Shown here in pieces: positions 7,121 through 23,290 of a stretch of 64,000 nucleotides of DNA. The number at the start of each line of letters is the position of its first letter. Within the stretch, counting starts at the first letter, position 1. This DNA comes from Sulfurovum sp. (GTDB taxonomy: Bacteria; Campylobacterota; Campylobacteria; Campylobacterales; Sulfurovaceae), in the NCBI GenBank assembly GCA_026989435.1, contig JALSJI010000048.1, positions 1 through 64,000 on the forward strand, read 5' to 3'. The notes beneath the pieces were generated by a model. It was not told where the DNA came from, did no database searches, and saw nothing but the letters and a program-made list of their open reading frames with translations. A program made the translations under genes and the position numbers.

Positions 7121-8335
7121 TTAGTAAACCTTTTGCCCGGCTACAAATACGGAAGAAACCTCTTTCGTATGTAAGAGTGTCCAAAGGGCTATCTCTTCTT
7201 CTCTTCTTGGGGATTCAGGAAGAGTAACGACGGAAAAGTCCGCCATTTTTCCAACTGCAATACGACCATTATTGAGTTTTAAAATATCTGCTGCATCCGA
7301 AGTTACAGATTTTAAAAGGGCTATCGCTAGCTCTTGAATGGGTAGTTCATTATGTAAAAATAAAGCCGCACGCATCTCATCAAAAATACTCAGTGAATCA
7401 TTAGAGCTTAAACCATCCGTTGCTACGCTAAAGGGAAGTTTGAGCGTTTCTATCGCTAGCCTTCCTACGCCCAAATATCGATTACTGCGTGGACAGTGGG
7501 CAATAGAGTGACCTTTTGAAGCCAGGTAGTTCAACTCCTCTTTGCTTGCATGCGTACAGTGTACAAAATGGGCAGGATAGGTGTCAAAAGCGTGGATAAA
7601 CTCTTGTATATTGCTTACAGGCGTTTGTGTATTAAAATATTTTTTAAAAAATGCTCTGAATTCACCTTCACCATGTTCTAACCACTCCCTCTCTGCCTGT
7701 GACTCTAAAAAATGAGCAGAGAGTACAAGCTTATGTTGTTTAGCAATCCCCACTGCTTTATGTAAAAGGAGAGGGTGTACGGAGTAGGGAGCATGTATGG
7801 CTACAGCAGGAGTAATACGTGCCTCTTTGTCACAGGACAAAGAAGCTCTTACACGCTCTACAAAGTCACCGTAGAGCATATCGGCATACTGAGCGACAGA
7901 GCCTATGAGCTCATTAAAAAAAACCACTCTTTGCGGAGCTTTTTCACACACCTCAAGCTCATTACCGAAACTAGAGACGGCACCAAAGGTAGTCACACCC
8001 GAACGTAACATACTACGACACTCTTCCATCATCATCGCATTAGTACAACACCCTACAAGATCGTCACGATGAACTATGACAGAATCCAACCATGGCATAA
8101 ATGAGCCGTATTTGAGAGAGGTTTTATTGGCTGAAAACTCTAGATGTACATGGGTGTTGATAAACCCGGGGTAGAGTACGGAATGCGGCACTGTTTGTAT
8201 CATCTGGGCATCAGGGTATTTACTCTCAAGTATCTCAAAAGGGCCTATCTCCTTAATAGTGTCGGAAAATGCCACTGCCTGCTTACGGATATAGCCTGAA
8301 GGGGTGTAGATATAGTCTGCATAAATAATTTTCAT
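7121..8335 (-). CDS. Amidohydrolase-family protein, aminofutalosine deaminase-like
   Basis: PGFINTHVHLEFSANKTSLKYGSF, HCTHASKEELNYLASKGHSIAHCPRSN, ATDGLSSNDSLSIFDEMR. Confidence 0.8.
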   Translation of the reverse strand: MKIIYADYIYTPSGYIRKQAVAFSDTIKEIGPFEILESKYPDAQMIQTVPHSVLYPGFINTHVHLEFSANKTSLKYGSFMPWLDSVIVHRDDLVGCCTNAMMMEECRSMLRSGVTTFGAVSSFGNELEVCEKAPQRVVFFNELIGSVAQYADMLYGDFVERVRASLSCDKEARITPAVAIHAPYSVHPLLLHKAVGIAKQHKLVLSAHFLESQAEREWLEHGEGEFRAFFKKYFNTQTPVSNIQEFIHAFDTYPAHFVHCTHASKEELNYLASKGHSIAHCPRSNRYLGVGRLAIETLKLPFSVATDGLSSNDSLSIFDEMRAALFLHNELPIQELAIALLKSVTSDAADILKLNNGRIAVGKMADFSVVTLPESPRREEEIALWTLLHTKEVSSVFVAGQKVY

Positions 8336-8442
8336 GCCGACATTGTAACATGCCCATACAAAGTTGTCAATTTTAAACTATTGTGCACTCTTTAACCACT
8401 TTTTAGCTAGTATCTTTCAAATAACCCATCTAAAGGAAAAAT

Positions 8443-8892
8443 ATGCAACACGCACAAGTATTAAAACTCTATATGACCATGCCGGATATGATGAGAAGCG
8501 GACACCGTATGGAGTGTGACGATATTGATGTAGACGAAGGGGGGATTATAGGTGATTTAAATCATAATACCTCAACAGATAAAGTGATACTCCTTGTCTC
8601 TAAAAAGAGTTATGACTTAATTCAAGAGGCAGATTTAGTCGTATCGGAAGGAGTACTGCTGGAGAATATCTATACCGATGTAGACCTTAATTATCTTCAA
8701 AAAGGATCTATTATTGAAATAGGGGAGGTGATGATGGAGGTTACCGGCCCTTGTGAAGCCTACGGATATCTCTCGGCACTCTCTCCCGAACTACCCGATG
8801 TTCTCCAAGGCAATCGCGGTATCTTTGTACGTCCCGTAGAGGAGGGACGCATCAGCCTCGGTGACGAGATAACGATTATCAAAAAGGCATAG
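8443..8892 (+). CDS. MOSC-domain-like protein
   Basis: MOSC-like pattern: GGIIGDLNHN, LLENIYTDVDLNYLQKGSIIEIGEVMMEVTGPCEAYGYL, GRISLGDEI. Confidence 0.6.
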   Translation: MQHAQVLKLYMTMPDMMRSGHRMECDDIDVDEGGIIGDLNHNTSTDKVILLVSKKSYDLIQEADLVVSEGVLLENIYTDVDLNYLQKGSIIEIGEVMMEVTGPCEAYGYLSALSPELPDVLQGNRGIFVRPVEEGRISLGDEITIIKKA

Positions 8893-21228: not shown

Positions 21229-21810
21229 ATGAAATCGTTGTTTTTTACTTCGCTAGTCACCTCGACACTACTCTTTGCTTCTCAAAGCAATACCTCAGAT
21301 CCGCTTAAGATAAAAGAGGAGGGGATTGGATATATCAAGATGCTAGGTAGTGCACTTAAAAAAGAGTTACAAACACAAATGAAAGCAGATAAAACAGCAC
21401 TAAAAGCAGTGAAGTTTTGTACAGATAAAGCATCCCTCATTACACAGGAGGTAAACAAAAAACTTCCAAAATATGCCAAAGTAAGAAGAACTGCACTTAA
21501 ACTAAGAAATCACACACAAAACTATGCTGATGCCATAGATACTAAAGTCATGCAGGAATATGTAGATGCTATCAAAGTAAATAGCTTTAATCCCCATCAG
21601 ATTAAAGTAGTCAAAGAGGGGAACACAACAAGAGTATACAAACCTCTGCTTACACTACCTGTATGCCTTAAGTGTCATGGTACCGATATTAAAGGTGAAC
21701 TCAAAGAGCATATTAACAAGGCTTACCCCGAAGATAAAGCCGTAGATTTTAAAGTAGGTAGCCTTAGAGGTGCAATCGTAGCAGAGATTCAAAAAGAGTC
21801 ATCTCTATAG
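21229..21810 (+). CDS. DUF3365 (Tll0287-like) exported haem-binding protein
   Basis: Signal peptide; VKFCTDKA, VRRTALKLRN, LPVCLKCHGTDI (CxxCH). Confidence 0.8.
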   Translation: MKSLFFTSLVTSTLLFASQSNTSDPLKIKEEGIGYIKMLGSALKKELQTQMKADKTALKAVKFCTDKASLITQEVNKKLPKYAKVRRTALKLRNHTQNYADAIDTKVMQEYVDAIKVNSFNPHQIKVVKEGNTTRVYKPLLTLPVCLKCHGTDIKGELKEHINKAYPEDKAVDFKVGSLRGAIVAEIQKESSL

Positions 21811-21908: not shown

Positions 21909-22580
21909 TTAAAACAGTCCCTCTTTTTCATCTTTTTTAATATTATCCCAAAACATATCTACATGTTTTTCAAACATCGATACCACGGAGGAGGTTGATT
22001 TTTGATCAAACTTCAACAGTACTACCTGCATTTGATAGAAAAAAAGCGGTGCAAAAAATTCATTTGCCAACAATAGGGGATCTGAAGAGTCTATAATCTC
22101 CTCTTGCATCATACCAAAAAAAATACTTGAGAGTTTTTTTACATTTTCTTGGTAAAAATATTCATTATAAATCTCGCGTACACGTTCATTACGAAATATC
22201 TCCTGCATAAGCAACTTATAAAGTGCTTCATTTTTTCCATCAAAGCTCAAAAGCTTAAATGTTGTCGCAATATTAGCCAACAGTGTTTTTCCCTGTTTTT
22301 GTAACTCTTTTGCATCTTTCCCTTCAAACAACGTAACAATAGCAGAAGAGGTGAGGTTGCTTATTAGCGTCTCAAGGATCTCGTCTTTATTTTTAAAATG
22401 GTTATAGAGAGCGGATTGTTTCACTCCCATAGCACCTGCAATATCTCTTACCGTGGTTGCTTTATACCCCTTTGTAGAGAAGAGTTTCAATGAAGTTTGA
22501 AGTATCTTCTCTCTGGTTTTACTACCTTTAGTAGCTAAGGCAGTGACGCTCTGCTCATACATGAAAACTCCTTTGATCAT
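21909..22580 (-). CDS. TetR/AcrR-family transcriptional regulator
   Basis: SKTREKILQTSLKLFSTKGYKATTVRDIAGAMGVKQSALYNHFKNKDEILETLI; start may be the internal MYEQ. Confidence 0.92.
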   Translation of the reverse strand: MIKGVFMYEQSVTALATKGSKTREKILQTSLKLFSTKGYKATTVRDIAGAMGVKQSALYNHFKNKDEILETLISNLTSSAIVTLFEGKDAKELQKQGKTLLANIATTFKLLSFDGKNEALYKLLMQEIFRNERVREIYNEYFYQENVKKLSSIFFGMMQEEIIDSSDPLLLANEFFAPLFFYQMQVVLLKFDQKSTSSVVSMFEKHVDMFWDNIKKDEKEGLF

Positions 22581-22588
22581 ATTATAAA

Positions 22589-22726
22589 GAACATTTGTTC
22601 ATATGTCAAGTATTCTAGTATTTTTCCCAATGAACAAATGTTCATAAGAATAATTTTATTCTCTTTTTTTGTGAACATTTGTTCATATAAGAATTCTTAA
22701 CTTTTTTATTTTATGAACACTTGTTC
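22589..22726. promoter_or_regulatory. Four-copy operator array GAACA-N2-TGTTC upstream of the TetR gene
   Basis: Palindromes at 22589-22600, 22632-22643, 22673-22684 and 22715-22726; centre spacing 43, 41 and 42 bp. Confidence 0.85.
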
Positions 22727-22741
22727 TTATGTCTGTCTATA

Positions 22742-22936
22742 TGCTTGTTTTACTTTGTTTTCGAGGATACGATAGACTCTGCTTGATGTAAGTCCCGGTA
22801 TGTCTATTTCACTCCCGTCAATTGTCGTCGTTTATAAAAGATCTATAAAACTCATTAGAAAAAATAAGAGAAATGATCCATGAAACATATCTAATCTTTC
22901 TCTAAAATAATTCTCCGACCCTTGGATCGTTTTCAT
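22742..22936 (-). pseudogene. Possible remnant of an unidentified minus-strand gene upstream of the TetR gene
   Basis: Reverse-strand frames give MKTIQGSENYFRERLDMFHGSFLLFFLMSFIDLL* then, in the same frame, TTTIDGSEIDIPGLTSSRVYRILENKVKQAYRQT*; protein-like composition broken by a stop. Confidence 0.25.
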
Positions 22937-23290
22937 GTGATATACACTAAGGTATAAATAAACACATATTAAAGAATCACAATAGAACATTATATTGCAC
23001 TACCATATGGTATTCCGGAGAAATATAGAAAAAAGATATTAATAATATTGAGGTGATAAAAATACATTCAAGCAAGGGTAAAGATGCAAAGTATACAAAA
23101 CTTCATAAAAGAGAATTAAAACAGACAAATATCATCTCTAAAAAAAACGATTTAATACTTACAAATATAAGTTTAGGGGAGAAATACGCTTTTTTTAATA
23201 GAATTTATATTATGTTAACCAAGATCAATACTTGAACGCCAACTCTTAATTTATAGAATCATTCTATCACTATTAACTTCTGCATTAGCA

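Follow-up and report, generated by a model that had tools for sequence, protein, structure and literature searches.

Why should a gene for a TetR-family regulator be preceded by four evenly spaced operators, when no divergently transcribed target gene is there for them to control? This question is raised by a stretch of 64,000 nucleotides (the window) from Sulfurovum sp. (assembly GCA_026989435.1, contig JALSJI010000048.1, positions 1 to 64,000), in which an array of four palindromes lies between a tetR gene and dif, at which bacteria resolve chromosome dimers into separate chromosomes. An initial annotation, made from the sequence alone, had reported the array, its link to tetR and the lack of an intact divergent target gene, all of which proved correct for the window, and had missed both the dif site at 23193-23220 and the perfect promoter of tetR. 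The answer that we favour, and to which we give roughly even chances, is that an autoregulated TetR-family protein would build a nucleoprotein complex on one face of the DNA beside dif, and that this predicted complex, probably assembled cooperatively, would serve the chromosome terminus.

The operator array and the tetR promoter

Four perfect copies of the palindrome GAACANNTGTTC are present at 22589-22726, with start-to-start distances of 43, 41 and 42 bp, exactly as initially annotated. The flanking consensus proposed for them, ATGAACA-N2-TGTTCAT, was slightly idealized, in that the palindromes are real and their outermost bases vary. No other perfect match occurs in the 64 kb window, for which a first-order Markov model predicts 0.07 in all, and the 1.6 Mb draft genome contains a single additional one, within the reading frame of rho; therefore, the cluster is not a product of chance. 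Given one site, the chance of three further sites within 150 bp is about 6e-13. Sites with two mismatches are not enriched (23 matches vs 31 expected), and therefore only perfect, clustered sites were regarded as meaningful. A genome-wide count in nine genomes returned the array plus 0-2 perfect strays per genome, which excludes a motif occurring at random frequency through the genome, the outcome that would have contradicted the initial annotation. A scattered regulon was likewise rejected, as perfect sites are limited to the array bar these few strays.

The perfect sigma-70 promoter of tetR has operator 1 in its 17-base spacer (Table 1), an arrangement shared by all 39 of the distinct upstream regions in the family. 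The start codon was placed at ATG 22562 because this position fits the promoter and the AAGGAG motif, and because the orthologues start at the same residue; a longer open reading frame, from 22580, would start beside the -10 box. The N-terminus of the protein contains a TetR_N helix-turn-helix (PF00440, 57.9 bits vs a cut-off of 24), and the predicted model (predicted local distance difference test, pLDDT, 85.5) has an all-helical ligand/dimer domain and is matched by many TetR structures. The earlier description of the palindromes as TetR-type operators beside their own gene is supported at the level of sequence by this domain and by the position of operator 1. This position, within the promoter spacer, makes it very likely that the protein represses its own gene through predicted binding to operator 1.

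Table 1. Features of the tetR-dif region, in coordinates of the window.
Feature	Position	Strand	Sequence or motif	Remarks
Operator 1	22589..22600	.	GAACATTTGTTC	Exact match; within the 17-bp spacer of the tetR promoter
Operator 2	22632..22643	.	GAACAAATGTTC	Exact match; position kept in relatives
Operator 3	22673..22684	.	GAACATTTGTTC	Exact match; position kept in relatives
Operator 4	22715..22726	.	GAACACTTGTTC	Exact match; dif-proximal operator; position kept in relatives
tetR promoter	22581..22609	-	TTGACA-17-TATAAT	12/12 consensus positions; promoter scan
tetR gene	21909..22562	-		217 aa; start ATG 22562, preceded by AAGGAG ribosome-binding site
Non-coding stretch, array to dif	22727..23192	.		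No conserved island; no RNA family above threshold
dif site	23193..23220	+	TTTTAATAGAATTTATATTATGTTAACC	XerC half, 6-bp centre, XerD half

A scan of the region for intrinsic terminators found none. Convergent with tetR, at 21229-21810, is a Tll0287-like gene (PF11845) with a signal-peptide-like start, and a gene of the PF11845 type also follows the tetR locus in several relatives.

Conservation and helical phasing of the array

Orthologues of tetR were detected in 95 of the 151 genomes of the window's family (E <= 1e-10), including two weak partial matches, and in 83 of 300 genomes of the order (E <= 1e-20), while a class-level search added no bacterial family to those already found. Orthologues in six families retain three or four sites, and in relatives with four these lie at about -38, -80, -122 and -164 from the tetR start codon. 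The sites were scanned at 70 loci, some genomes being counted twice, and 68 of these carried three or four sites (63 four, 5 three). The remaining two are a locus cut off at a contig end (L029) and one with a truncated tetR (L050). The latter, at 7962-8507 of genome G003, encodes an orthologue of 182 aa without the N-terminal DNA-binding part and has no operator array; the same genome gave no match to the dif pattern searched for, and its truncated tetR is followed by three identical tandem copies of a methyltransferase gene.

After removal of duplicate loci, the 172 pooled gaps between operators were only of 21-22, 31-33 or 41-43 bp. The pool excludes a 25-bp gap to a weak look-alike with two mismatches (L035) and three gaps exceeding 60 bp, each ending at a lone weak match further upstream (L022, L053 and L077); since the pooled gaps are not independent, no formal probability was attached to this distribution. 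Spacing differs between lineages: it is about 32 bp in the family labelled f16, 32-33 or 21-22 bp in f18, and a mixture of 31-33 and 22 bp in f4. The operators have therefore shifted between lineages by whole helical turns and never by half turns, as a multi-dimer complex on one face of the DNA would require, and it is probable that several dimers form such a complex on the array through the predicted binding. The suggestion in the initial annotation that constant same-face spacing points to cooperative multi-dimer binding thus finds support at the level of sequence, in the restriction to whole-turn shifts.

Linkage of the array to dif

The window contains a dif site 0.47 kb past the array, on the far side from tetR. 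Its 28 bp differ at one base from the published dif of Sulfurovum NBC37-1 (PMC2731167), and in the window genome it is single-copy and non-coding. The corresponding motif, TTAACATAATATAAATTCTAT, located some 0.6 kb upstream of tetR, is conserved and occurs almost always as a single copy. In the relative genome G042 the motif is at 1186917-1186937, in agreement with the position of 1186929 given for NBC37-1 dif by Carnoy and Roten (2009; PMC2731167). In another relative, G024, GC skew switches from positive to negative at dif, as judged from 20 sampled stretches of that genome rather than of the draft genome of the window. On the basis of the published sequence, the single copy, the agreeing position and the switch in skew, the site is identified as dif by sequence, copy number and position. 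Two full-length matches to the XerD profile are present in the window genome (229.6 and 146 bits), both under the curated cut-off of 329.6.

Alignment of 15 upstream regions revealed only dif, the operators and the promoter as conserved elements. A non-coding RNA in the array-dif gap was considered and rejected, as these alignments contain no conserved island there, and the Rfam matches scored far under the gathering scores and mostly fell on the palindromes.

In 118 of the 123 genomes with both elements on one contig, no more than 4 kb separates tetR from an upstream dif or difH. In the window's family, dif precedes tetR by 91-2017 bp in 69 of 71 such genomes; in f4 and f18, difH is found 85-240 bp upstream in all 27, and in f9 and f16 dif is within 3.7 kb in 22 of 25. 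The linkage therefore exists under two recombination systems, XerCD/dif and XerH/difH. The compact loci of f4 and f18 (L068-L076, including that of G210) consist of xerH, difH, the operator array and tetR in a divergent arrangement, with xerH divergent past difH in all nine loci examined. Beyond dif, the genes belong to many different families even between close relatives.

A tree of 53 TetR proteins recovered the bacterial families as clades. For this reason horizontal gene transfer was rejected as the cause of the linkage, whose history is most simply read as one in which dif, array and tetR were inherited vertically as a unit while one Xer system gave way to the other.

It was also considered that the array might be a property of dif itself. 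Twenty stretches around dif were taken from genomes that had no tetR match or, in one case (G067), carried tetR on a separate contig; of the 20, 19 yielded dif and none an array near it, the only related finding being one isolated weak site 1.3 kb from dif in G208. Because some of these genomes are incomplete drafts, their lack of tetR is not in every case assured. Since dif genomes without tetR have no array, this possibility was rejected. Conversely, where dif is 10-32 kb away (G007, G062 and G327), the array remains with tetR. The array belongs to tetR, and the tetR-array pair tends to remain at the terminus.

Possible functions of the array

The conserved linkage to dif is the strongest evidence on function, and the mechanism we propose would comprise three steps. 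In the first, which is strongly indicated, a dimer bound to operator 1 between the -35 and -10 boxes would repress tetR. In the second, suggested by the conserved helical phasing, three more dimers would occupy the same DNA face at 42-bp steps, giving a regular, probably cooperative four-dimer complex that extends toward dif. In the third, the complex would probably act on the terminus itself, as several families have retained the array next to dif or difH at the replication terminus, whichever Xer system they use and whatever genes lie nearby. It might mark or organize the surroundings of dif so that chromosomes segregate and dimers are resolved at division or, alternatively, keep transcription off this region; either would be a role at the terminus instead of control over a set of metabolic genes.

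Four observations weigh against this mechanism. Several genera keep dif without tetR or array, and therefore dimer resolution in itself does not depend on the complex. The dif-tetR distance ranges between 85 bp and several kb, and reaches 10-67 kb in five genomes, so that a fixed geometry with dif is not required. The predicted fold is that of a generic TetR and matches neither SlmA nor RefZ specifically. Finally, a gene for an S-adenosylmethionine (SAM)-dependent methyltransferase follows tetR in most of the window-family loci examined, and may be an ordinary target. This gene is not found behind tetR in the window, nor in other families, where the gene next to tetR is mostly convergent and differs from one family to another; no candidate target besides tetR itself is conserved across families. 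At loci L037-L056, the methyltransferase gene, often with a gene for a small membrane protein, is located roughly 0.7-1.9 kb downstream from where tetR starts; the window's genome has neither gene behind tetR.

The chief rival explanation is an ordinary repressor bordering a dif-bearing gap. The protein would be a ligand-responsive autorepressor whose four operators provide steep, tight repression of tetR and, at loci that have them, of the downstream methyltransferase and membrane-protein genes, and the link to dif would be historical, a consequence of the large non-coding gap hosting it. We regard this as possible, if on balance improbable. It would account for the location of operator 1 in the tetR promoter, for the methyltransferase gene in most family loci examined, for the generic fold, and for the array staying by tetR where dif is distant (20-32 kb). 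However, the downstream gene is common neither to the other families nor to the window's own genome; the neighbours past dif were swapped many times while tetR stayed; the linkage survives a change of Xer system; and one operator is enough for repression, yet three or four phased ones have been retained. The predicted structure, a confident model of a generic TetR fold, does not decide between a terminus role and an ordinary repressor.

It is also conceivable, although quite unlikely, that the TetR protein represses both itself and a divergent xerH across their shared intergenic region, and that the array is a relic in XerCD species. The arrangement in f4 and f18, with difH and the array between divergent xerH and tetR, could indeed be ancestral. 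Nevertheless, XerCD species have just 0-2 stray perfect sites outside the array per genome, both of their xerC/xerD-like genes are on other contigs or far off, and a relic would not be expected to hold four phased sites across such divergence. An accessory-site complex comparable to ArgR/PepA at cer, in which the phased array would wrap DNA so that only dif sites of the same molecule synapse, would suit the adjacency to dif or difH and the whole-turn spacing, but appears very unlikely, because cer-type accessory sites require fixed geometry whereas the distance between array and dif ranges from 85 bp to several kb, and relatives keep dif without the array.

A four-dimer complex acting at the terminus remains the reading that we prefer. 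Regulator genes are seldom tied to a chromosomal landmark, and here a TetR gene, a phased array and a dimer-resolution site have remained neighbours in several families, even where the recombinase system changed. Should the complex indeed act on the terminus, it would offer a concrete handle on terminus management in Campylobacterota; in addition, the operator spacings of two, three and four helical turns constitute a natural series for studying multi-dimer TetR assembly.

Comparison with known systems

A terminus role for a dif-linked TetR array in Campylobacterota does not seem to have been described. A literature search found no account of dif accompanied by a TetR gene or an operator array; the search covered few subscription papers, so that an earlier description is possible. 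Only tentatively, the locus might represent a terminus-organizing system of Campylobacterota, in which a four-dimer TetR complex ties the terminus to division or dimer resolution, with a purpose like that of MatP or RefZ and an independent origin. With MatP/matS it shares a protein having terminus-restricted sites. However, MatP does not belong to the TetR proteins and its matS sites are scattered over the terminus region, whereas the window system has one cluster of four sites, and the nine genomes counted contain no dispersed set beyond the array and its 0-2 strays.

The dif site of the window is of the kind published for the dif/XerCD and difH/XerH systems of Epsilonproteobacteria (Carnoy and Roten, 2009; PMC2731167); that study covers dif, difH and the Xer genes, and its main text makes no mention of TetR. 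There is also a likeness with RefZ (YttP) of Bacillus, a TetR-family protein that acts on FtsZ placement through a few RefZ-binding motifs (RBMs) at chromosomal positions conserved across the genus (PMC6657595). RefZ is the best NCBIfam match of the window protein, which nevertheless scored 63.9 bits against an equivalog cut-off of 180, and membership was rejected; moreover, the RBMs are separate, two per chromosome arm plus one near oriC, in contrast with a phased array at dif. SlmA, the nucleoid occlusion factor of E. coli, is likewise a TetR-family protein whose function depends on chromosome position. It differs in that the sites of the window protein are concentrated beside dif, and membership was again rejected (40.5 bits vs an equivalog cut-off of 120). 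Both RefZ and SlmA are examples of a TetR-family protein able to act on the chromosome and on division.
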